Positions 23,114 to 33,192 of a DNA stretch of 64,000 nt are shown piece by piece. This stretch comes from Hyphomonadaceae bacterium (GTDB lineage: Bacteria; Pseudomonadota; Alphaproteobacteria; Caulobacterales; Aquidulcibacteraceae), in contig JALHQO010000010.1 of NCBI GenBank assembly GCA_022841905.1, positions 62,001-126,000 of the forward strand, given 5' to 3'. Within the stretch, counting starts at the first letter, position 1. Each line of letters starts with the position of its first letter. The position numbers and the translations under genes were made by a program. The notes below the pieces were generated by a model. It searched no databases, had not been told where the DNA came from, and was given only the letters and a program-made list of their open reading frames with translations.

Positions 23114-25920
23114 TTCGGCTGCACCACCTCGATCGGCAGACCCAAGGCTTCCAGCTGTGGGCGCACCACGGATGCATCTCCGACAACCACCCAAACGAAC
23201 TGCGCCGGATCGACGACGCTGCGTACTGCATCGTCCATCTGGCCTGCCGTCATGCCGCGATAGCGGCTGGCGATACGCTCCCAATAATCGTCGGGGCGAT
23301 TGTAGAGCGCGTTGCCGCGCAGCGCGCCGAGTACCGAGCCCGCAGTTTCGTATAGGCCCGGCAGCTGGCGGATGTTGCCGTTGATGACGCGCAGATGCTC
23401 AGCGTCGGTGACGCCATTGTCGCTCCGGAAGCTGTTGATCTGCTCCATCAGCACGCGGATGGAGTCGCCCGTGCGGTCGGCTTGCACCGGCGCGTTGATC
23501 ACGTACGGCACGCGGCCTTCACGCAATTGCACGACGCCGGAGAGGCCATAAGACCAGCCGCGCCGCTCACGGATTTCCGTGTTGATGCGCGAGAGGAAAT
23601 TGTTGCCCAACACTTCGTTGCCGGCATTGAGCGTCACCGTGTCGTCGCGGCCGGTGATCGGCAGAACGGCGCCGGCGGAGATCACCGATTGCGGCGATTG
23701 CGGGCGGTCGACAATGACGATGCGCGATTGCGGCGCGGGGATCGGCGCGGAAAAATCCTTGCGCCCAACCGCCACGTCCGCAGCACCCCGCCACGTGCCG
23801 AAGCGCGCGTCGAGCAGGCGTCGGACTTCCGAGAGCGGACGATCCGACACAACGAAGATGCGGGCGGTTTCCGGTCTGATCCAGGTTCGGTGGAACGTGA
23901 CCAGATCGTCGCGATCGAGCCCGCCAACAGATGCTGCGCTCCCGAGACCGGAAGCTGGCCGCCCGTAGGGATGGCTGGCGCCATAGAGCAAGGGCGGCAA
24001 GGCGCGGCCCGCCAAACCGTTTGGCGATGTCGCTTCGGAGGAGATCGCCGCGAGCTGTTGAGCACGCTGGCGCGTGAACTCGGACTCGGCGAAATCTGGC
24101 CGCTGCAAGATGTCGGCCATAAGGTCGAGCGAGAGCGCGAGGTTGGCTGACAGAGCCGTCAGCGTGACGGCAGAGCGATCGAGACTGCCGCCGGTCGAGA
24201 TGGTTGCGCCGAGGCGTTCTTGCTGTTCGGCGATCTGCATCGCGTCCATGCCATCAGCGCCATCAGACATCAGCGACATGGTGAGCGTCTGCAGGCCGAA
24301 CGCGCCTTGCGGATCGGCGGCGATGCCGGCGTCGAAATCGATCGCCACGAGCGTCGCCGGGATGGCGGCGCGGCGCGCATAGACAACCTCGATGCCATTG
24401 GAGAGACGCGCGCGCTCGACGTCCGGGAAATCGAGATCGGCGATTTCGCCGAGTGGCGGCATCGGATCACGCGGCGTCACGGTTGGCGGGCTGTTGTCCG
24501 GCGCCGGGCGATTGGTGGCGGTGGCTTCCGGATAAGGCTCACGCACGCCGGGATCGACGCGTAGTGAATAGACCGGACGCGTGAGCCAACGGCCCATGGC
24601 GTCGCGCACGCTAGCGGGCGTGATGTCACCATACGCGAGCAGATTGCGGCGGAAGAAGCCGGGATCGCCCGCGATCACGGCGCCGTTGGCGAGCGCCACG
24701 GTTTGACCGTTAAAGCCGCCAATTTGCTCGATCGCAAACAACCCAGCAGCAACCTGCCCTGTCGCAACACGTTGGATTTCATCCTCGGTCGGGCCGGAAG
24801 CGACGAAGTCGCGGATAATGCCGTCGAGACGATCGGAGACCGCTTGCACGTCTTGGCCGGGCGCCACGTCGGCGGTGACGAAGAAGAGGCTCAAGCGCTG
24901 GAACGGCAGCACGGACGCGGTCACGGAGACAGCCGTCTGATCGGCGCGCACCAATTCGCGATCGAGCCGCGAAGTGGCGAGGCCGCCGAGCACTTGCGCC
25001 GCAGCGTTCAAGTCCTGCTGGTCTTCGTCGGCAAGGCCCGGCACGGCCCAAACGCGATAGAGACGCGAGTTGGCGACGCGGTCCGTCATCACTTCAGATA
25101 TGGGCGCTGCCAAAGTCGGCACATCAGCGGCGGCCGGCACGTTTTGGCGCCCGCGCGCGATCTGGCCGAAATAGCGCTCAACCAACGGCCGCGCTTCGGC
25201 GGCGTTGATGTCGCCGGTCAGCACGAGCACCGCATTGTTCGGCCCGTAACTATCGCGGAACCACTGGCGCACTTGCTCAAGCGACGCGCCGTCGAGATCG
25301 GCCATCGAGCCGATGGTGGAGTGGCGATACGGGTGGCCCTCGGGGAAGAGGCCTTCGAGGATGCGATAGAACGCCAAGCCGTACGGCTGGTTGTCGCCCT
25401 GACGCTTTTCGTTTTGGACGATGCCGCGCTGCGCATCGAGCGATTGCTGCGTCAGCGCGCCGAGCAAATAGCCCATGCGCTCGCTCTCGATATAGAGGCC
25501 GCGCTCAAGCGCCGGCGCGGGCACGGTTTGAAAATAGTTGGTGCGATCGAACCAAGTGGTGCCGTTCCAATTGGTGGCGCCCATGTCGCGCAGCGGCTCG
25601 ATCAGATTCGGAATATGCTCGGTGCCGTTGAACAGCATGATGTGTTCGAACAGGTGCGCAAAGCCGGTCTGGCCCGGCGGCTCATCCTTGGAGCCGATAT
25701 TGTACCATGCCGCGATGGCGACGATCGGCGCCTTGCGATCTTCGTGAACGAGAACGGTGAGGCCATTGTCGAGAGTGAAGCGTTCATAGGGAACATCGAC
25801 GCCGGCCATGAGCTCTTCGACCGAAGCCGGTTGGCCATTGCCCGCCGCCGGCGCGCCGCCGCTGGCCGTGGCGCACGCCGCGAGTCCCAAAGCCGCCGCC
25901 GCCATAAGAAATGTCCGCAT
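23110..25920 (-). CDS. M16 family zinc peptidase, lipoprotein
   Basis: A 936-aa insulinase/pitrilysin-type peptidase with two M16 halves. The start at 25920 gives a lipoprotein signal ending LGLAAC (Cys16); an in-frame start at 26058 would hide it. The first half carries the inverted zinc motif HLFEH (about residue 80) and the distal glutamate region near 150. The second half begins near residue 490 (RARLSNGIEVVYARRAAIPATL), has no HxxEH, and ends with the paired Arg/Tyr block (RRGWSYG), as in heterodimer-like fused M16B proteins. It is probably anchored in the periplasm and cuts peptides. Single gene, minus strand. Confidence 0.9.
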   Translation of the reverse strand: MRTFLMAAAALGLAACATASGGAPAAGNGQPASVEELMAGVDVPYERFTLDNGLTVLVHEDRKAPIVAIAAWYNIGSKDEPPGQTGFAHLFEHIMLFNGTEHIPNLIEPLRDMGATNWNGTTWFDRTNYFQTVPAPALERGLYIESERMGYLLGALTQQSLDAQRGIVQNEKRQGDNQPYGLAFYRILEGLFPEGHPYRHSTIGSMADLDGASLEQVRQWFRDSYGPNNAVLVLTGDINAAEARPLVERYFGQIARGRQNVPAAADVPTLAAPISEVMTDRVANSRLYRVWAVPGLADEDQQDLNAAAQVLGGLATSRLDRELVRADQTAVSVTASVLPFQRLSLFFVTADVAPGQDVQAVSDRLDGIIRDFVASGPTEDEIQRVATGQVAAGLFAIEQIGGFNGQTVALANGAVIAGDPGFFRRNLLAYGDITPASVRDAMGRWLTRPVYSLRVDPGVREPYPEATATNRPAPDNSPPTVTPRDPMPPLGEIADLDFPDVERARLSNGIEVVYARRAAIPATLVAIDFDAGIAADPQGAFGLQTLTMSLMSDGADGMDAMQIAEQQERLGATISTGGSLDRSAVTLTALSANLALSLDLMADILQRPDFAESEFTRQRAQQLAAISSEATSPNGLAGRALPPLLYGASHPYGRPASGLGSAASVGGLDRDDLVTFHRTWIRPETARIFVVSDRPLSEVRRLLDARFGTWRGAADVAVGRKDFSAPIPAPQSRIVIVDRPQSPQSVISAGAVLPITGRDDTVTLNAGNEVLGNNFLSRINTEIRERRGWSYGLSGVVQLREGRVPYVINAPVQADRTGDSIRVLMEQINSFRSDNGVTDAEHLRVINGNIRQLPGLYETAGSVLGALRGNALYNRPDDYWERIASRYRGMTAGQMDDAVRSVVDPAQFVWVVVGDASVVRPQLEALGLPIEVVQPN

Positions 25921-26064
25921 AACCCGCTCCCCGTTGACCCGCCATTGCACACGGGCGCGGCGCCCAAGTCCAGCAACTGTGCGACGAGCGACGCCCACCT
26001 TTCGGCGGGCGTCGGATTCGAGAGATTGCGGCGGCCAGCCGTTGAGCACGCGCTTCAACTGTTC

Positions 26065-27015
26065 TCAGCGGAGCGATTCCATGAAAGCACGGAGGTCGGC
26101 GGCGGACCGATCGGGCGCCTCCTCCATCGGCATGTGTCCGGTGTCTGGGTAGATCACGAGGCGCGCCCGCGGGATCGCGGCGGCGAGTGCGCGGCTATCC
26201 TCCACCGAGATGATGCGATCGTTCTCGCCATGGATCACCAATGTGGCGATGCCGATGCCCGCGAAGTCCTCGGGCGTGAGCGGCGGATCGCCTCGATTGT
26301 TGCGGTCGGAGGAAAGCAGCGCGCGATGACCCGGCGCGCGGGCGAGATCGACATAACGCTTCACCACTTCGTCGCGCACCATCGACCGGTCGTGATAGGC
26401 GGAAACGAGGCCGCGCTCCGCGAAGAGACGCGGATTGACGTAGCGCAGGATCCCGCGGCCGATCGGATTGCGCAGCAACTGAAAAGCGAGCGGCGTGCGG
26501 CCGCTGCTCTGCTGCTCACGCGGCCAAGCAGCGGCGGCGACGAGCACGAGTGCGTCGAGCTTTTCCGGATGCGCCAACGCGTAACGCACCGCGACGGCGC
26601 CGCCCATGGAGTGCCCGACGAACGTGAAGCGTTGCACGTTAAGCCGCTGCGTGAGTTCTTCGATCAGCTGCGCGTTAGAGCCGGCGGAGAAACTGTAGCC
26701 GGACGGCGCGCGCGTGAGGCCATGGCCCGGCAAGTCCACGCTGATGATGCGGTAGTGGCTCTGCAGCCGTTCGACCCACGGCTCCCACGTGTGCACCGAG
26801 GCGCCAAAGCCATGCACCAGCACGAGCACCGGCGCCGCTTCGGGGCCGTGCACGCGATAATGCATGCGCACGCCGTCGGATAAGTCCATGTACAGCGATG
26901 CGCCGTTGGCGTAGCGGCTCTCGAGCGTCGCGTACGGGATGTCGCGGCTGAACGGCGCGCACGACATCAAGCCCATCACCGCGACCATCACGCCCAAGAC
27001 CCACAAGCGGCGCAT
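26065..27015 (-). CDS. alpha/beta hydrolase, lipoprotein
   Basis: A 316-aa alpha/beta hydrolase with a lipoprotein-type N-terminus (VMGLMSC, Cys near residue 19). Visible are the oxyanion motif HGFGASVHTW (about 68-77), VDLPGHGLT (about 94-102), the nucleophile elbow VGHSMGG (about 134-140), and the C-terminal IHGENDRIISVED and YPDTGHMPMEE carrying the acid and histidine. Substrate unknown; related proteins include epoxide hydrolases and haloperoxidase-like esterases. It is separated from the M16 gene by 144 bp in which I see nothing distinct. Confidence 0.85.
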   Translation of the reverse strand: MRRLWVLGVMVAVMGLMSCAPFSRDIPYATLESRYANGASLYMDLSDGVRMHYRVHGPEAAPVLVLVHGFGASVHTWEPWVERLQSHYRIISVDLPGHGLTRAPSGYSFSAGSNAQLIEELTQRLNVQRFTFVGHSMGGAVAVRYALAHPEKLDALVLVAAAAWPREQQSSGRTPLAFQLLRNPIGRGILRYVNPRLFAERGLVSAYHDRSMVRDEVVKRYVDLARAPGHRALLSSDRNNRGDPPLTPEDFAGIGIATLVIHGENDRIISVEDSRALAAAIPRARLVIYPDTGHMPMEEAPDRSAADLRAFMESLR

Positions 27016-27065
27016 CGGCCATCCTTATCTGTTCGCTAAAGTGTGCGGCAAGGACGGCGCGGGCG

Positions 27066-27752
27066 CTACTCTTGGTTTACACGCCCGGGCAGATTCCCCT
27101 CTTCCGCCAGCCGCACCAGGGCGGGCAGTTGCGCATAGTCCGAGAATGACGCTGCGGGAGCGAGAGCATCGAGCGGCTCGGCGCGATAGCCTTCCGCGTA
27201 GAGAAAGAACATCGCGCCTGTCGCTTTACTTAGGGCCGCATCGACCGAACCATCGCCGACATAGATGATCTCATCGATGCCAGCGCCGCAACCATGGGCG
27301 GCGCTGACCAGCACGCGCGGATCGGGCTTGCGCACGGAGAGCGTGTCGCCGCCGACCAGCATGCTGAAGAACTCGGCGATGCCGAGTTTTTGCAGGATGG
27401 CGCGCGCGTGGGCCTGGTCCTTGTTGGTGCACAGGCCCAATTGATAGCGGCTGGCGAGGTCGCGCAGAGCAGCGAACACGCCGGGAAAGAGACGCGTGAG
27501 CGGATAACCTTGCGCGGCATAGATACGTTTGAATTGTTCGATCCGCTCGGCAAGATCTTCGGGCGCGACGCCGGCGTGAAGATAGCTCCGCGCCACGAGC
27601 GCGCCGATGCCATCGCCGATAAAGCTCTCCACCGCGCGCAGAGTGATGGGCGCGATCCCTTCTTCCGCGAACAGCAGATTGACGGCGGCATGCAAATCTT
27701 CGCCGCCGTCGATCAGCGTGCCGTCGAGGTCGAAGATGATGGCCTTGATCAC
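27066..27752 (-). CDS. cbbZ: HAD phosphatase, phosphoglycolate phosphatase-like
   Basis: A 228-aa haloacid dehalogenase-type phosphatase of the Gph/CbbZ kind, which hydrolyses 2-phosphoglycolate formed by the oxygenase reaction of RuBisCO or by DNA repair. Motif I is IFDLDGTLIDGG (residues 7-18) with both aspartates, motif II is the CTNKD region (about 108-112), motif III is VRKPDP (about 139-144), and motif IV is YVGDGSVD (about 164-171). The start is GTG, overlapping the stop of the cbbP remnant (GTGA). Its position at the end of a broken cbb cluster suggests descent from cbbZ, but it may now serve as a general Gph. Confidence 0.85.
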   Translation of the reverse strand: MIKAIIFDLDGTLIDGGEDLHAAVNLLFAEEGIAPITLRAVESFIGDGIGALVARSYLHAGVAPEDLAERIEQFKRIYAAQGYPLTRLFPGVFAALRDLASRYQLGLCTNKDQAHARAILQKLGIAEFFSMLVGGDTLSVRKPDPRVLVSAAHGCGAGIDEIIYVGDGSVDAALSKATGAMFFLYAEGYRAEPLDALAPAASFSDYAQLPALVRLAEEGNLPGRVNQE

Positions 27753-27952
27753 GGATCGGCTCGCTTCTTGTCACTGGAGAGGCCGCCGCTGAAGACGCGG
27801 CTGGCGCGGAAGTCTTCGCTGTCGAGGGTTGAGAGCGCCGCGGCGTCCTTGATGCCTTCACGCCGAAAGATCTGATCGAACGTGTGCTTGACCGTGCTCG
27901 TGCCTGCGCCGGAAGAGCCGACGACCGAGATGACGGGATGACTCACAGACAT
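27749..27952 (-). pseudogene. cbbP: phosphoribulokinase remnant (N-terminal stub of cbbP)
   Basis: Only 67 codons remain of a gene that normally encodes about 290 aa. Residues 1-37 match the start of proteobacterial phosphoribulokinase closely (HPVISVVGSSGAGTSTVKH, then TFDQIFRREGIK), including the complete P-loop GSSGAGTS. From about residue 38 the sequence (DAAALSTLDSEDFRASR onward) has no kinase character, and the ribulose-5-phosphate-binding and catalytic parts are absent. It lies 7 bp after cbbF and overlaps cbbZ, the normal relative order with the middle deleted. The reading frame is open but cannot encode a working kinase. Confidence 0.88.
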
Positions 27953-27959
27953 CGCCGCC

Positions 27960-29021
27960 TCACGATTTAAACAGGCCGCGCTGATGAAACAGCGGCGCAG
28001 CGTCTTGGGCGTAAGCCGGATCGACGTGATAGTGGCGGACGGACTCGACGTCCTTGGCCGAGCCGAACACCAGCGGCGTGCGCTCGTGCAAGCTCAGCGG
28101 CGTCTTCTCCAGAATCCGCGCGTGACCATCAGTGGCGGCGCCGCCGGCTTGCTCCATCAGCATGGCGACGGGCGCTGCTTCATAGAGAAGACGCAGCCTG
28201 CCCTGCTCGAACCCCTGGCGCGCATCCGCCGGATAGAGATAGACGCCGCCGCGCAGCAAAATACGGTGCGCTTCCGCCACCATCACCGCGAGCCAGCGCG
28301 CGTAACAATCGACGCCGCGCGGGCCCCCTGCGCCTTCGATGCAATCGTCGACGAAAGTGCGCGTCGGCGCCGGCCAGAAGCGGCGGTTCGACATGTTGAT
28401 GGCGATATCCGCTGCGCTGCCGGGAACGCGCAAGCTCGCTTCGGCGCGCTTGAAAGTTTGATCGTCAGGATCGAGCACGAAGAGATCGACGCCCGCGCCA
28501 ACCGTCAGCACCAGAAGCGTGCTGCTCCCGAAAAGGAAGTAACCGGCGGCAAGTTGATCGGCGCACGGACGAAGGAAAGAAGCCTCCGCCGTTTGCGCAG
28601 CGGGCAAAATCGAAAAAATCGCGCCGACAGTGAGATTGACACTGACATTGCCAGAGCCGTCGAGCGGATCAATCGCGACGGCCAACGCTGCGCCTTCGCG
28701 CAACGCGATCGGCGCGTTGCTTTCCTCGGATGCTAGAAAGGCTGTCGGTGTGTGCTTCAGCGCCGCAATGAAGATATCGTTGGCGACGACATCGACGGTC
28801 TTTTGGACGTCGCCATCGGAATTCGTCGCGCCGGTTGCGGCGGAGATATCGCCCGCTAGCGCACCGCGCGCCAAAATGGCCGCCAGATTCCGCGCGCCCG
28901 AGGCGAGCCCCACCACCACTTCGGCAATGTCGCTGCGCTGACGATTGGCGCCGGCCCACGCGATCAGGACGTCGCCGAGATGGTCCAAGGGCGGCGGGGT
29001 TTTCCCCTTTTTCACGACCAT
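27960..29021 (-). CDS. cbbF: class I fructose-1,6-bisphosphatase
   Basis: Hydrolyses fructose-1,6-bisphosphate to fructose-6-phosphate in gluconeogenesis and the Calvin cycle. The 353-aa product has the Mg-binding signature AIDPLDGSGNVSV (about 117-129; family WxxDPLDGSSN), an acidic pair EES near 100, and the C-terminal substrate block GGVYLYPADARQG followed by LLYEAAPVAMLMEQAGG. The ATG at 29021 was chosen; an in-frame start at 29180 would run into the divergent regulator gene. Its neighbours (divergent cbbR, the cbbP stub, cbbZ) show it descends from a cbb operon. It probably persists for gluconeogenesis. Confidence 0.93.
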   Translation of the reverse strand: MVVKKGKTPPPLDHLGDVLIAWAGANRQRSDIAEVVVGLASGARNLAAILARGALAGDISAATGATNSDGDVQKTVDVVANDIFIAALKHTPTAFLASEESNAPIALREGAALAVAIDPLDGSGNVSVNLTVGAIFSILPAAQTAEASFLRPCADQLAAGYFLFGSSTLLVLTVGAGVDLFVLDPDDQTFKRAEASLRVPGSAADIAINMSNRRFWPAPTRTFVDDCIEGAGGPRGVDCYARWLAVMVAEAHRILLRGGVYLYPADARQGFEQGRLRLLYEAAPVAMLMEQAGGAATDGHARILEKTPLSLHERTPLVFGSAKDVESVRHYHVDPAYAQDAAPLFHQRGLFKS

Positions 29022-29128
29022 GTCCGCGCCCTTCGAGGTCGGGCCGAACACCCGTTCAAGGGAAAGCCTTGCGCGGAGGAACGAAAAAGAAAATGTTAAA
29101 AGAACGACGCTACCGAAAGAAAAACTAA

Positions 29129-30073
29129 ATGTCGGATCTCCGTGGGCTCTCCATTCGCCAACTTCGGGCGTTCTCCGCAACGGTGCGGCTGGGCTCGATC
29201 ACAGCGGCGGCCAAGGCCCTGCACGTGACCCCGCCCGCAATCTCCATCCAACTGAAATTGCTCTCGAAACAGGCTGGCGGCGATGTGCTCGAACGTACCG
29301 CTAGCTGGTTTGAGCCGACGGCGCTGGGCGCGGAAATCCTCGAAGCCGCGCACGAGATGGACGGGCTGCTCGACCGCCTGAGCGATCGCATCAACGCTCT
29401 TCACAGCGGCGCGGCTGGGTTGTTGCGGCTCGGCGTCGTCAGCACCGGAAAATACTTCGCGCCGCGCATCGTCGCCGGCTTTCAGCGGGCGCACCCAGGC
29501 ATCGTCGTGAAGCTCGTCATTGGCAATCGCGGCGAGATTCTTACCGGGCTTAGGCAACGCAATTTCGATCTCTGCATCATGGGCCGCCCGCCCGAAGACG
29601 TGCCTGTAATCCGCGAAGAACTGGGCGACCATCCGCACGTGCTGATCGCCCCGCCCGACCACCGGCTCGCTGGCCGCCGCGATATCGCGCACGCCGAATT
29701 GCAGCAGGAGACCTTCCTGGCGCGCGAGGAAGGATCGGGCACGCGCATGCTGATGAACCGGTTTTTGGACCGCGTTGGCGCAGAACGGCCGGTTCAATTG
29801 GTCGATATGGGCACCAATGAAACCATCAAGCAGGCGGTGATGGCGGGGCTCGGCATCGCCATTATCTCCGCCCACACATGCGCTGCGGAACTGGCGGAGG
29901 GGAAGCTCGTTGCACTTGATGCGCGCGGTACGCCGATCGTGCGCCAATGGTACATCATCCATCGCGCCGACCATGAATTGTCCGTGGCGGCGCAGCACTT
30001 TCAGAGCTTTGCCGCAGCGCACAAGAACACGCACTTTCCAGAAGGGTTCGGCGGCATGAACCGGAGCGAATAG
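29129..30073 (+). CDS. cbbR: LysR-type regulator, CbbR-like
   Basis: A 314-aa LysR-type regulator. The N-terminal winged helix-turn-helix (LSIRQLRAFSATVRLGSITAAAKALHVTPPAISIQLKLL, residues about 7-46 in pieces) is followed by a periplasmic-binding-protein-like effector domain from about residue 93. The segment LRLGVVSTGKYFAPRIVAGF is characteristic of CbbR, the activator of Calvin-cycle operons that senses cycle metabolites. It is divergent from cbbF across 107 bp, the classic CbbR/cbb arrangement. Since phosphoribulokinase is destroyed and RuBisCO is absent nearby, it may now control only cbbF and cbbZ. Confidence 0.85.
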   Translation: MSDLRGLSIRQLRAFSATVRLGSITAAAKALHVTPPAISIQLKLLSKQAGGDVLERTASWFEPTALGAEILEAAHEMDGLLDRLSDRINALHSGAAGLLRLGVVSTGKYFAPRIVAGFQRAHPGIVVKLVIGNRGEILTGLRQRNFDLCIMGRPPEDVPVIREELGDHPHVLIAPPDHRLAGRRDIAHAELQQETFLAREEGSGTRMLMNRFLDRVGAERPVQLVDMGTNETIKQAVMAGLGIAIISAHTCAAELAEGKLVALDARGTPIVRQWYIIHRADHELSVAAQHFQSFAAAHKNTHFPEGFGGMNRSE

Positions 30074-30131
30074 CGGGACGTATAATCGTAGGTGGCCCCA
30101 CTCGCAGTTTTTGGCGCTGGACGGTATTGGT

Positions 30132-30149
30132 TGTCGAAATATCTTGACA
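30132..30149. promoter_or_regulatory. candidate PpsR operator upstream of cytochrome c
   Basis: A perfect TGT-N12-ACA palindrome (TGTC at 30132-30135, GACA at 30146-30149), the known PpsR/CrtJ recognition pattern, 56 bp before the cytochrome start. Its TTGACA half could also serve as a -35 element, so repressor binding would block the polymerase. Confidence 0.7.
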
Positions 30150-30205
30150 GTCGCGCGCCCCGGGCGTCGGAGTAGCGCGAATTAGACTCTTCGGGAGGAG
30201 CTTGA

Positions 30206-30721
30206 ATGCGTTCATTGATTGGTGCGGCCGCGCTTGGCTTGGTGCTGGCTGCAGCGGCATGTTCGCCGGCCGCGGACAATTCAGCCGAAGCGCCGCCGAC
30301 GACGACCGCTGAAGCGCCAGCTGAGGCGCCGCCCGCTGCTGAAACGCCCGCCGGCCCGCCGGCCGCGACACAGATCGCACTGAGCATCACCGACGCAAGC
30401 GGCGCACAGCTCACCGGCGACACGGCGCGTGGTCAGCGCATCTTCGCACAATGCGCAACCTGCCACTCGCCCGAGCAAGGTGTGAACCGCGTCGGCCCGT
30501 CGCTCTATGGCATTATCGGCCGTGGATCGGGAACGATCCCGGGCTTCCGTTACTCGGCGGCGAACCAGGCCTCTGACATCGTCTGGACCGAGCAAGAGCT
30601 CTTCACGTACCTGGAAAATCCGCGTGCGAGAATTCCGGGCACGACCATGGCGTTCGTTGGCCTGCGCAATCCGCAGCAACGCGCCGACGTCATCGCCTAC
30701 TTGAAGGCGAACGCCGAATAA
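30206..30721 (+). CDS. anchored class I c-type cytochrome
   Basis: A 171-aa exported monohaem cytochrome. Residues 1-19 form a signal sequence ending AAAAC, a possible lipobox (the -3 position is Ala rather than Leu, so an uncleaved anchor or plain cleavage is not excluded). A low-complexity Ala/Glu/Pro linker of about 35 residues (22-55) follows. The haem motif CATCH is at 83-87 and the axial Met is probably Met148 (GTTMAF), giving a cytochrome c2/c-y-like domain. A good Shine-Dalgarno (GGGAGGAG) precedes the ATG. The upstream TGT-N12-ACA site and absence of pufC make it a candidate electron donor to the photosynthetic reaction centre. Confidence 0.88.
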   Translation: MRSLIGAAALGLVLAAAACSPAADNSAEAPPTTTAEAPAEAPPAAETPAGPPAATQIALSITDASGAQLTGDTARGQRIFAQCATCHSPEQGVNRVGPSLYGIIGRGSGTIPGFRYSAANQASDIVWTEQELFTYLENPRARIPGTTMAFVGLRNPQQRADVIAYLKANAE

Positions 30722-30744
30722 GAACCCTCGTAAAGCATAGCCTC

Positions 30745-30775
30745 AAGGCCGTCGAAGCCCTGCTTCGGCGGCCTT
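30745..30775 (+). terminator. intrinsic terminator of the cytochrome gene
   Basis: A 13-bp stem with one U-G pair (AAGGCCGTCGAAG at 30745-30757, its partner at 30763-30775, 5-nt loop CCCTG), followed by GTTGTATT. It lies 23 bp after the cytochrome stop and just before the end of the converging DUF3833 gene. Confidence 0.8.
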
Positions 30776-30782
30776 GTTGTAT

Positions 30783-31304
30783 TCAGGGCTGGCGGCGGAA
30801 GATGAGGGTGCTGCGGCCCAATTCGAACCCGAACTTGGTGACGCGGGCGACGTTCAGCAGCGTATCTTCCGCCGTCTGCACGAAGGTGTCGTGGAAGCGC
30901 ACCCGCATCCGCCGCGCACCGAGTTTCAGGGAAAACAAATACGACCAGCGCAGCACGCCGCCGCGAACGGCGCCGCGGGCGTCGCCAATCATGTCGTCTG
31001 CGTTGGCGCTGTAGCCGCCGGCGCCGATCGGCGTGATGCGCCAAACGCGTTGTTCGGTAGCGCCATCGTCGAACAGGAAATGCTCGCTCAATACCAGCGC
31101 GCCACCATCCAGGCGGCCATCGAGCTGGATGGCGAAGCGGCGGCGGATGCGGCCGGTGAAATCCTGGAACACGCCCTCGGCGCGCGAGCGCCCGAGCAGA
31201 AAGCGCTCGATCCGCGGGTCCCCCGCAGGCAGTGGATTTACCGCCGGCGCATGAGATCGATCAGGTGAAACGGAAACGACGCGGCGATCAACAACGCTAC
31301 CCAT
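30783..31304 (-). CDS. DUF3833 family protein
   Basis: A protein of about 173 aa resembling the DUF3833 family, small putative lipid-binding-like beta proteins of unknown function. The order of short motifs fits: GVFQDFTGRIRRRFAIQLDGR, then LSEHFLFDDGATEQRVWRI, SANADDMIGDARG, and the C-terminal TLLNVARVTKFGFELG. Many relatives are lipoproteins, but no clear signal is seen here. The start is uncertain; the ATG at 31304 is the nearest in-frame start and overlaps the upstream membrane-protein gene by 67 bp. Function unknown; it is downstream of that membrane protein on the same strand. Confidence 0.7.
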   Translation of the reverse strand: MGSVVDRRVVSVSPDRSHAPAVNPLPAGDPRIERFLLGRSRAEGVFQDFTGRIRRRFAIQLDGRLDGGALVLSEHFLFDDGATEQRVWRITPIGAGGYSANADDMIGDARGAVRGGVLRWSYLFSLKLGARRMRVRFHDTFVQTAEDTLLNVARVTKFGFELGRSTLIFRRQP

Positions 31305-31495
31305 GGCCAACCCGCTCCAACCAAAGCCGCCCTGAGCGCCAACAGCAGCATGACGCCGGGCATTAACGCAAAGAACCAAGTCACCGCCGCGCGCGTGCGC
31401 TGTTCGCGCGCGAGGCTGACGAGCACGATGAACTCAATCGCGATCACCAGCAGAACGACATCCACGGCGCGGCCACTGAGTACGAAGTCCTGCAC
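31238..31495 (-). CDS. small membrane protein of unknown function
   Basis: An 85-aa, very hydrophobic protein with about three membrane segments (VVLLVIAIEFIVLVSLA, AVTWFFALMPGVMLLLALRAA, WVALLIAASFPFHLIDLM) and a basic C-terminus RRR. I do not recognise a family. It lies between tspO and the DUF3833 gene, same direction, 21 bp after the tspO stop, so it may be the tail of the PGC left block or the start of a separate pair with the DUF3833 gene. Confidence 0.65.
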   Translation of the reverse strand: MQDFVLSGRAVDVVLLVIAIEFIVLVSLAREQRTRAAVTWFFALMPGVMLLLALRAALVGAGWPWVALLIAASFPFHLIDLMRRR

Positions 31496-31516
31496 GGCGC
31501 GCTGCTCCGATTACGA

Positions 31517-31999
31517 TCAGCCGAACGGCCCGTTCAGTCGCACCACCTCGTAATTGAGTACGGCGGCCAACGACACCCAGATCAAATACGGCGTCAGCAA
31601 AACACCGGCGAGACGCGAGTGCCGCGCGGTGAAGATGATCAACGCGACGATCGAAAGCCAAAGCGCGACGACTTCGATCAGCGACCAGTCGGGTCGCTGC
31701 AAGCGGAAGAACAGCAAGCTCCACAGCACGTTCAGAAAACCGTTCAACGCAAAGAGGCCAATCAACCATTCGCGCTCAGCGCCCTTCGGTGCGCGCCGCC
31801 ATGTGATGACGGCTGCTGCTGCTGTCAGCGCATAGATGGCTGTCCAAATCGCGCCGAAGGCGGGACCGGGCGGTTGCCAGTCCGGCTTCTGCAAGCCTTG
31901 ATACCAAGCGCCAAGATCAGTGACCGTGCTGCCGAGCGCGCCGACAAACACCGCCGCGGCCGCCGCCACCGCAATCGGGCGCAGCCGCTTCCAGTTCAC
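31517..31999 (-). CDS. tspO: TspO/MBR family tryptophan-rich sensory protein
   Basis: A 160-aa membrane protein of the TspO/CrtK family with five helices and many Trp/Pro residues (WYQGLQKPDWQPPGPAFG near 32-49, FRLQRPDWSLIE near 98-109). In Rhodobacter sphaeroides, TspO is an outer-membrane oxygen-responsive modulator that lowers photosynthesis gene expression and affects tetrapyrrole traffic. The start is GTG at 31999, overlapping the bchP stop (GTGA). It is the last gene of the ppaA-ppsR-bchG-bch2-bchP-tspO block, as in many proteobacterial PGCs where it is called crtK. Confidence 0.92.
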   Translation of the reverse strand: MNWKRLRPIAVAAAAAVFVGALGSTVTDLGAWYQGLQKPDWQPPGPAFGAIWTAIYALTAAAAVITWRRAPKGAEREWLIGLFALNGFLNVLWSLLFFRLQRPDWSLIEVVALWLSIVALIIFTARHSRLAGVLLTPYLIWVSLAAVLNYEVVRLNGPFG

Positions 32000-33192
32000 G
32001 TCGGCGACATGCCGAGCAAGTGTCCCATGTCCTTCATGAAGATGCGCATGTGCGCGGCCGGATCGGCGCGGACGAGTTCCTTGTTCATGTAGGCCTGCCA
32101 CGTGAGGCGCTGCACGTCGGGATCGTCGCACATGGAGACGAAGCGTTCGCGGCGCTTGTCGCTGCGGTACCAGAAGTGCTGCATGATGCCCAAGATCCAG
32201 AAAACTTGGCCGTGGTCGCGCATGAACGTCTTGCGCGCGCTGGCGAGGCTTTGCGGCTTGCCAGTGCTGAGAAACGCGTCCGCCGCTTCGGCCGCAACGC
32301 GTCCGCCAATCATGGCGTAATAGATCCCCTCGCCCGATGCCGGCGCAACGACGCCGGAGGCGTCGCCGGCAAGCACGACGTCGCGACCATTGTCCCAACG
32401 CGCCAGTGGCTTCAGCGGAATCGGCGCGCCTTCCGTGCGAACGGTCTCGCAACCCGAGAGCCCGGAGCTTTCGCGCAGGGCGGTGACAGCGCCGCGGAGC
32501 GAGAAGCCTTTATTGGCGGAGCCGACGCCAATGCTGGCTGTATCGCCGTGCGGGAAAATCCAGGCGTAGAAATCAGGCGAGAGCTTGCCTTGATAATAGA
32601 CGTCGCAGCGGCGGCCGTCGAAGCCGGCTACGCCTTGCGGCGGTGAGCGAATGATTTCGTGATAGGCGAACACGCATGGCATGCGGTCGGCGCCTTTCAC
32701 GGTTTGCTGCGCCACTTTCGAGCGCGCGCCGTCGGCGCCGATGATGACGCGGGCGCGCACGCGGCGGACTGCGTCTTTGTCGGTGTCCTTGTCGTGGTAG
32801 CAAACGACTGCAACGCCATCACCGTCATGCTCGATGCGCAGGAACGAGCCGGCGAGCCGCTCGGCGCCGGCGCCGGCGGCGCGCTCGCGCAGCCATTCGT
32901 CGAAATGTTCGCGGTCGACCATGCCGACGAAGCCGCCTTCGATGGGCATGTCCACTTCGCGGTCAGACGGCGCCACCATGCGCGCCGAGGTCGCGCGCGC
33001 GACCAAAAGATGATCTGGAATTTCAAAGTCGCGAATGAGCCGCGGCGGGATTGCGCCGCCGCACGGCTTAATGCGCCCGGCGCGGTCGAGCAGCAGCACG
33101 GAATAGCCCGCGGTCGCGAGATCGGTGGCGGCGGTTGCGCCAGCGGGGCCGCCGCCAACAACCACAGCGTCATAGGTCAGCTTGGGTGTCAT
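31996..33192 (-). CDS. bchP: geranylgeranyl (bacterio)chlorophyll reductase
   Basis: Flavoprotein that reduces the geranylgeranyl side chain of bacteriochlorophyll to phytyl, the final step of pigment synthesis. The 398-aa protein begins with the FAD motif VVVGGGPAGATAATDLA (about residues 10-26) and has the GR family blocks AGRIKPCGGAIPPRL (about 38-52), ARVIIGADGARSKVAQ and LAGDASGVVAPASGEGIYYAM (about 270-290). It overlaps the upstream bch2 gene and downstream tspO by four bases each, showing tight coupling. Confidence 0.96.
   Translation of the reverse strand: MTPKLTYDAVVVGGGPAGATAATDLATAGYSVLLLDRAGRIKPCGGAIPPRLIRDFEIPDHLLVARATSARMVAPSDREVDMPIEGGFVGMVDREHFDEWLRERAAGAGAERLAGSFLRIEHDGDGVAVVCYHDKDTDKDAVRRVRARVIIGADGARSKVAQQTVKGADRMPCVFAYHEIIRSPPQGVAGFDGRRCDVYYQGKLSPDFYAWIFPHGDTASIGVGSANKGFSLRGAVTALRESSGLSGCETVRTEGAPIPLKPLARWDNGRDVVLAGDASGVVAPASGEGIYYAMIGGRVAAEAADAFLSTGKPQSLASARKTFMRDHGQVFWILGIMQHFWYRSDKRRERFVSMCDDPDVQRLTWQAYMNKELVRADPAAHMRIFMKDMGHLLGMSPT

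Follow-up and report, generated by a model that had tools for sequence, protein, structure and literature searches.

Many aerobic phototrophic Proteobacteria lack Rubisco, among them the aerobic anoxygenic phototrophs Roseobacter and Erythrobacter, where loss of carbon fixation is inferred from absence. Here we analyze a 64,000-nucleotide stretch (the window) of a Hyphomonadaceae bacterium genome (GCA_022841905.1, contig JALHQO010000010.1, positions 62,001–126,000), which like those organisms has a photosynthesis gene cluster with the oxidative cyclase gene acsF and in which no Rubisco or complete phosphoribulokinase (PRK) was found. Unlike those cases, this one offers both what is very probably a deletion scar, in a Calvin-cycle (cbb) operon, and a sister genome with the operon intact.

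Intact operons of the order cbbR|cbbF-P-(T)-A-L-S-X, with divergent cbbR, occur in Alphaproteobacteria including two congeners of the window's organism (G001 and G017), Mesorhizobium albiziae (L029) and a Neomegalonema metagenome-assembled genome (MAG; L026). The window shares this order and the divergent cbbR, but everything from cbbP through cbbX is gone except 35 and 32 codons. For cbbZ, M. albiziae has a weak match (37%) and the Neomegalonema MAG has none in the locus. In Methylobacterium, PRK has a role in ribulose 1,5-bisphosphate (RuBP) signalling to QscR. Named loci with a related cbbF were surveyed as the best 80 of 87 (L025–L104, a set that may omit entries from the genome of the window itself), one of them being G001; near-full-length PRK was found in 79 of these 80. 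Where such a PRK was accompanied by at least 6 kb of downstream sequence, 60 of 67 loci had no cbbL there, and 59 of those 60 are Methylobacterium or Methylorubrum by title. Methylobacterium cbbF-cbbP thus resembles the window in keeping the head of the Calvin operon without Rubisco nearby, but its PRK is full length, whereas the window's is itself cut.

In Caulobacterales, section 10 of PMC12700997 reports phototrophy genes for 35 of 347 species. It places Calvin genes within the Acaudatibacter photosynthesis cluster and credits two Vitreimonas phototrophs with a complete and a near-complete Calvin cycle; as at the window's locus, Calvin genes and the red-type activase gene cbbX go with the photosynthesis gene cluster. 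A Calvin operon by a photosynthesis cluster is therefore already in print for this bacterial order. The window's genus may be that Vitreimonas, and G001 or G017 may be one of its two phototrophs. Section 10 of that paper describes no deletion scar, whereas the window's operon is broken, and an intact sister allows its junction to be read. No prior report of this scar, its junction or its date was found in the literature searched, supplements excluded. Loss of autotrophy by operon deletion is an expected kind of event; what is unusual, and useful, is that both ends can be seen, an intact sister exists and the event can be roughly dated.

The cbb locus and its counterpart in G001

We hold with high confidence that the window carries the scar of one recent 4,654-bp deletion in the Calvin-cycle operon beside its photosynthesis cluster. 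The features of the locus are:

27846–27849, no strand: deletion junction, placed by comparison with G001, 4,654 bp of which are absent from the window
27848–27952, minus strand: cbbP codons 1–35 including the P-loop, first part of the fused frame (profile match and G001 alignment)
27749–27847, minus strand: last 32 codons and stop of cbbX (Rubisco activase) in native frame, second part of the fused frame
27960–29021, minus strand: cbbF, class I fructose-1,6-bisphosphatase (FBPase), intact; omega 0.085 relative to G001
29022–29128, no strand: cbbF-cbbR intergenic region, with a putative CbbR operator at the cbbR end
29129–30073, plus strand: cbbR, LysR-type regulator, intact; 95% amino acid identity to the G001 copy, omega 0.081 relative to G001
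27066–27752, minus strand: cbbZ, phosphoglycolate-phosphatase-like HAD hydrolase, intact; omega 0.068 relative to G001

G001 is the same-genus MAG ULC027bin2, which the part of PMC6202449 consulted describes as recovered from a non-axenic culture of Phormidium priestleyi, an Antarctic cyanobacterium, and as 95.0% complete; the genome listing gives 87%, as it does for G017. At the same place, on contig C147 (QBMO01000060.1), G001 has cbbR | cbbF, cbbP, cbbA (class II aldolase), cbbL, cbbS, cbbX and cbbZ, all open. Its PRK, class II aldolase, Rubisco large subunit and CbbX (TIGR02880, 532 bits) passed NCBIfam cut-offs; its small subunit was over the Pfam cut-off for PF00101 (130.9 bits), with no NCBIfam match at E 1e-20. 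Window positions 24001–33000 align to G001 in three collinear pieces at 92.4%, 93.2% and 94.3% nucleotide identity. G001 is longer by 4,654 bp, and its Rubisco is located inside this stretch that the window lacks. In the window, cbbP breaks off between codons 35 and 36 and the sequence continues in cbbX, 32 codons ahead of the cbbX stop, and the missing parts of both truncated genes lie between them in the intact G001 operon, as expected of a relic. An earlier note made from the window's sequence had proposed one internal deletion starting in cbbP and removing the Rubisco genes, and had called for a search of sister genomes for an intact operon and of other cbb genes, cbbX among them, for the right-hand junction. 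The comparison with G001, intact and collinear at 92–94% identity on both sides, bears the proposal out and puts that junction in cbbX.

The Rubisco of G001 is red-type (form IC/ID), with a large subunit nearest red-type enzymes and a linked cbbX. The best structure chain for G001 CbbL was 25hn_A (1025.5 bits), followed by 1bwv, 4f0h, 8bdb and 1bxn at 888–916 and 1rsc at about 632.

The junction lies in a 67-codon frame (27749–27952, minus strand), an in-frame fusion of cbbP codons 1–35 with the last 32 codons of cbbX, both in native frame. Its residues 1–37 match positions 1–37 of the PRK profile NF011997 (E 8.2e-13; 48.4 bits, against 362 for the whole enzyme), it scores 32.3 bits with PF00485, over the cut-off, and the N-terminal P-loop motif of PRK can be read in it. 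The note's PRK remnant of about 37 residues with an intact P-loop is thereby supported, at 35 codons by G001 alignment; the remainder, which it took for unrelated sequence, is instead the CbbX C-terminus. With 67 residues, 35 of them from PRK, the frame falls short of the PRK catalytic domain of about 290 amino acids. As the P-loop is kept and the rest of PRK is gone, the product is most likely non-functional.

At the join, the left arm tracks G001 through ...GGCATCAAGG and the right arm starts at GACGCCG. The exact overlap is 1 nt, or 5 nt (GNCGC) with one mismatch allowed, and the stretch missing from the window is G001:C147 12842–17495, or the same shifted one base. The longest words shared within 100 nt of the two G001 breakpoints are 8 nt and out of register with the join, for which reason repeat-mediated deletion was rejected. 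With so little exact sharing, the break would have been rejoined by illegitimate or end-joining-type recombination.

An assembler might also have skipped 4.65 kb of an operon that is present in the real genome. The evidence for the window is an assembly whose reads were not seen, and G001 and G017 are themselves drafts. However, the 1 nt at the join and the 8-nt words near the breakpoints are below usual assembly k-mers, which are commonly longer than 8 nt, and Rubisco and class II aldolase were found nowhere else in the window's genome. Nor is the stub a fragment of G001: the two are separated by 7 synonymous changes in the cbbP part and by 4 synonymous and 1 nonsynonymous in the cbbX part. 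We judge an assembly or binning artefact very unlikely.

The window's genome (3.56 Mb, 27 contigs, 99.4% complete, 0.37% contamination) was searched by family, not read whole. The Rubisco large subunit family PF00016 had no matches. PF00485 matched the stub and one 219-aa protein (C1:46752–47294), and nothing else; the latter was rejected as a second PRK, with 181.3 bits to uridine kinase NF004018 (cut-off 180) and 103.6 of 236 for the PRK model. A compensating Rubisco or PRK, which the note had said would undercut its proposal, was thus not found by family searches of this assembly. Class II aldolase PF01116, the one aldolase class covered, likewise had no match genome-wide. Gluconeogenesis would therefore depend on a class I aldolase, the operon's cbbA having gone with Rubisco. 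Besides cbbF, the genome has another FBPase, of GlpX type.

The ancestor would have had the arrangement of G001 (cbbR | cbbF-cbbP-cbbA-cbbL-cbbS-cbbX-cbbZ). Its deletion would have taken most of PRK, the class II aldolase, the Rubisco large and small subunits and most of the activase, leaving the regulator, FBPase, phosphatase and cbbR-cbbF intergenic region. The organism would then neither make nor carboxylate RuBP, and would be left a photoheterotroph. The retained cbbF and cbbZ could serve gluconeogenesis and 2-phosphoglycolate clearance, although the GlpX enzyme provides a second FBPase.

Several points weigh against this account. The scar is in one genome only, and the search for lost functions was made by family in an assembly that is 99.4%, not 100%, complete. 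The sampled population may have been a strain mixture, as the analysis was made from an assembly, not reads. Finally, CO2 fixation by G001, and its loss in the window's organism, are predictions from gene content.

Identities of the flanking genes agree with the note's description of a LysR gene with CbbR features diverging from a class I FBPase gene. The best NCBIfam model for 29129–30073 is CbbR NF045990 (395.8 bits, under its 450 cut-off; the next model is 234 bits lower), and the gene is syntenic with G001 and G017. The frame with its stop at 27960 passes class I FBPase NF006780 (429.9 bits vs the 358 cut-off); its start at 29021 is a chosen start codon in an open frame that extends to 29180. 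The best model for cbbZ is phosphoglycolate phosphatase TIGR01449 (166.5 bits, under its cut-off of 180). Also as described in the note, the PRK-derived frame begins 7 bases past cbbF (27953–27959) and overlaps the phosphoglycolate-phosphatase-like gene, by 4 bases.

Age of the junction and the retained genes

Against the intact G001 genes, the stub shows 11 synonymous and 1 nonsynonymous changes and no indel over 66 codons (codon 36 left out). Its synonymous difference is 0.226 per site; among ten neighbouring genes, nine are at 0.17–0.30 and the cytochrome c gene at 0.10. Had the frame been free since the split, 15–22 amino acid changes would be expected on the window's branch, and at most 1 is seen. 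This limits the free period to about 0.21–0.32 of the branch at 95%, provided that the two branches are equal, that the frame has been neutral since the deletion and that nothing else constrains it. By this count the deletion looks to fall within roughly the last quarter to third of the window's branch, making the scar young, not a deep fossil. Of the note's phrase "fossil of photoautotrophy", the relic stands, with both operon ends and the torn cbbP and cbbX; the deep age does not, given 11 synonymous changes and one amino acid change.

The excess of synonymous changes could also be read as the fused frame being kept for function, either because it encodes a small protein of P-loop and CbbX tail or because it links cbbF and cbbZ into one translation unit. 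In keeping with this, the fusion is in frame, the 7-nt and 4-nt spacings are preserved, and there is no stop or frameshift. A young neutral scar is, however, expected to look no different, most of its changes being older than the deletion; an in-frame join has a chance of 1 in 3; and a PRK reduced to its P-loop is not expected to act as a kinase. The frame's distribution also speaks against function. Our comparison set had 30 genomes of the genus, 60 of the family and 101 related genomes, with the window's own as G000. The 67 residues matched in 4 of the 101 (the window's own, G001, G017 and G046), and at full length only in the window's own. In G001, residues 1–38 match at one place and 31–67 at another; the two places are on the same contig, separated by about 4.7 kb that includes Rubisco. 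In G017, of the same genus, residues 1–38 and 33–64 likewise match at two places; in G046, of another genus, the match covers residues 1–37 only. The conservation across distant genera that the note had raised as a counter-indication is thus absent, and we consider a retained function improbable.

No clear relaxation of selection on cbbR, cbbF or cbbZ was seen in their omega values or in replacements polarised with G017. These numbered 6, 3 and 1 on the window's branch and 3, 2 and 3 on that of G001, with 6, 10 and 3 unpolarised (10, 8 and 19 in sum); the counts are small, and cbbR leans toward relaxation. The last 44 nt before cbbR (29085–29128) are identical to G001 at 43 positions and to G017 at 36. 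Between G001 and G017, nucleotide identity is 63% for cbbF and 67% for cbbR, and cbbF, cbbR and the cytochrome c gene span 63–69%. Because the 44 nt are more conserved than these genes, they are a probable retained CbbR operator.

The locus across the genus

Landmarks outside the operon allow the locus to be followed in other genomes:

26065–27015, minus strand: alpha/beta hydrolase, after cbbZ in the window, G001 and G017, and directly beside the cytochrome c gene in G008
30206–30721, plus strand: cytochrome c gene (PF00034, 40.3 bits), common landmark beyond cbbR
31996–61971, no strand: photosynthesis gene cluster (bchP ... pufLM ... bchC), adjoining the locus

The photosynthesis cluster that the note saw beside the locus is real: all ten proteins scanned (bchP, bchG, bchN, bchB, bchH, acsF, pufM, pufL, bchZ, bchC) clear the cut-off of an NCBIfam model that matches them; with BchB this is TIGR01278, its top-listed model being under its cut-off. 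With pufLM, bch genes and acsF, the window has the genes of an aerobic anoxygenic phototroph.

Reaction-centre genes were found in 6 of the 30 genus genomes (G000, G001, G002, G008, G017, G019) and 28 of the 101 relatives, and a related cbbF (E 1e-20) in 3 of 30 and 10 of 101. The Rubisco large subunit was found in 2 of the 30 genomes of the genus and in 3 of the 60 of the family. The two in the genus that have it are those listed as 87% complete, and draft gaps elsewhere may hide some; G008 and G019 (99%) have none. The note's descent from an autotrophic ancestor is accordingly supported for the gene content of a recent ancestor, not for the family.

In G046, of another genus in the same family (L014, L226), PRK, FBPase and aldolase are on C8 and Rubisco is on C4 (186792–187685), with no pufLM match. 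Its large subunit had no tblastn match above 35% identity to G001 CbbL and so is probably a different form.

At the locus itself the genus shows a graded series. G017 has cytochrome c, then cbbR | cbbF-P-T up to a contig end inside cbbT, and on a second contig T-A-L-S-X-Z and the hydrolase; the two contigs overlap exactly over 68 nt, and the cbbT piece matches Transketolase_N. G001 (L025:11070–13053) has the same order without cbbT between cbbP and cbbA; the operon may have been trimmed of cbbT before the window's deletion, or cbbT gained by G017. In G008, the cytochrome c and hydrolase start codons are 270 bp apart (288 bp between matches), with no cbb genes. Blastn of this gap (L179:14501–14950) against the window, G001 and G017 stretches found no cbb remnants, only the cytochrome-upstream and hydrolase ends and short words. 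In G019, cytochrome c is followed by a thioredoxin/DsbA-like gene (PF13462), with no cbb genes and no orthologous hydrolase there; the only hydrolase is a 32% paralogue elsewhere in the stretch.

The rarity of Rubisco in genus and family might mean that the operon was never in the window's lineage, having inserted in G001 and G017, with the window a partial or failed insertion. G044, G036 and G049, which keep the cytochrome c-bchP cluster end without a related cbbF, fit this. Unlike an empty target site, however, the window has both outer operon ends and torn cbbP and cbbX joined at one point, and we regard insertion as extremely unlikely. An older gain, before the split of G000 and G001, is possible and would leave the deletion reading unaffected.

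The series was set against a gyrA+parC tree of 15 genomes (6 genus phototrophs, 6 of 24 other genus members, 3 of other genera; 1,667 sites; frames picked by similarity). An rpoB match was found in 24 of 30 genomes, with none in G017, and rpoB was not in the trees used. G000 and G001 (support 100) join G019 (99). G008 pairs with G027 (82) and is tied to the former three at only 52. G017 and G020 (100) fall outside an eight-genome genus clade (96) holding the remaining phototrophs. This tree suggests that the operon is older than the G017 split, with separate losses in G008 and G019 and a partial one in the window.

Other observations count against repeated loss in its simple form. G027, G020, G018, G005 and G022 have no reaction-centre match, yet are interspersed with the phototrophs, which requires loss or transfer of the whole cluster as well. 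A tree of the photosynthesis cluster (20 genes, 8,320 sites, 10 genomes; G002, with an 11.6-kb contig only, left out) places G044, which belongs to a different genus, between G017 and the remaining four with support of 100, and sets G008, not G019, next to G000 and G001 (87). These conflicts over G017/G044 and G008/G019 (G017:C32, G044:C4) suggest that the cluster may have been exchanged between lineages. The cluster ends without a related cbbF in G044, G036 and G049 were read for 2–14 kb beyond cytochrome c. Finally, synonymous divergence (dS) between G001 and G017 is 0.44 for cbbL, 0.47 for cbbS and 0.76 for cbbA (L012, L011), compared with 0.98–1.93 for the other genes compared. Codon bias in cbbL is only slightly stronger (effective number of codons 34.7 vs 37–43), so that local recombination at cbbA-cbbL-cbbS is possible; the low divergence may reflect either this or codon selection. 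Because of these conflicts in trees, distribution and dS, we give only an even chance to the Calvin operon beside the photosynthesis cluster having been dismantled repeatedly at one address within one genus, while remaining highly confident of the window's deletion itself.

Probable loss of autotrophy and the phototrophic lifestyle

Arguments over whether phototrophs without Rubisco lost autotrophy or acquired photosynthesis only usually start from absence. Here the loss is directly visible: both breakpoints can be placed, the sister that keeps the operon is about 7% diverged in DNA, and the event can be roughly dated. If brought into culture, a strain like G001 and one like the window's organism, closely related phototrophs differing at the CO2-fixation operon, could test the benefit of giving up Rubisco but not light capture. 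If repeated dismantling is true, the change from photoautotroph to photoheterotroph would be a frequent, one-step and recent switch, and selection for other tasks would preserve the regulator and side enzymes.

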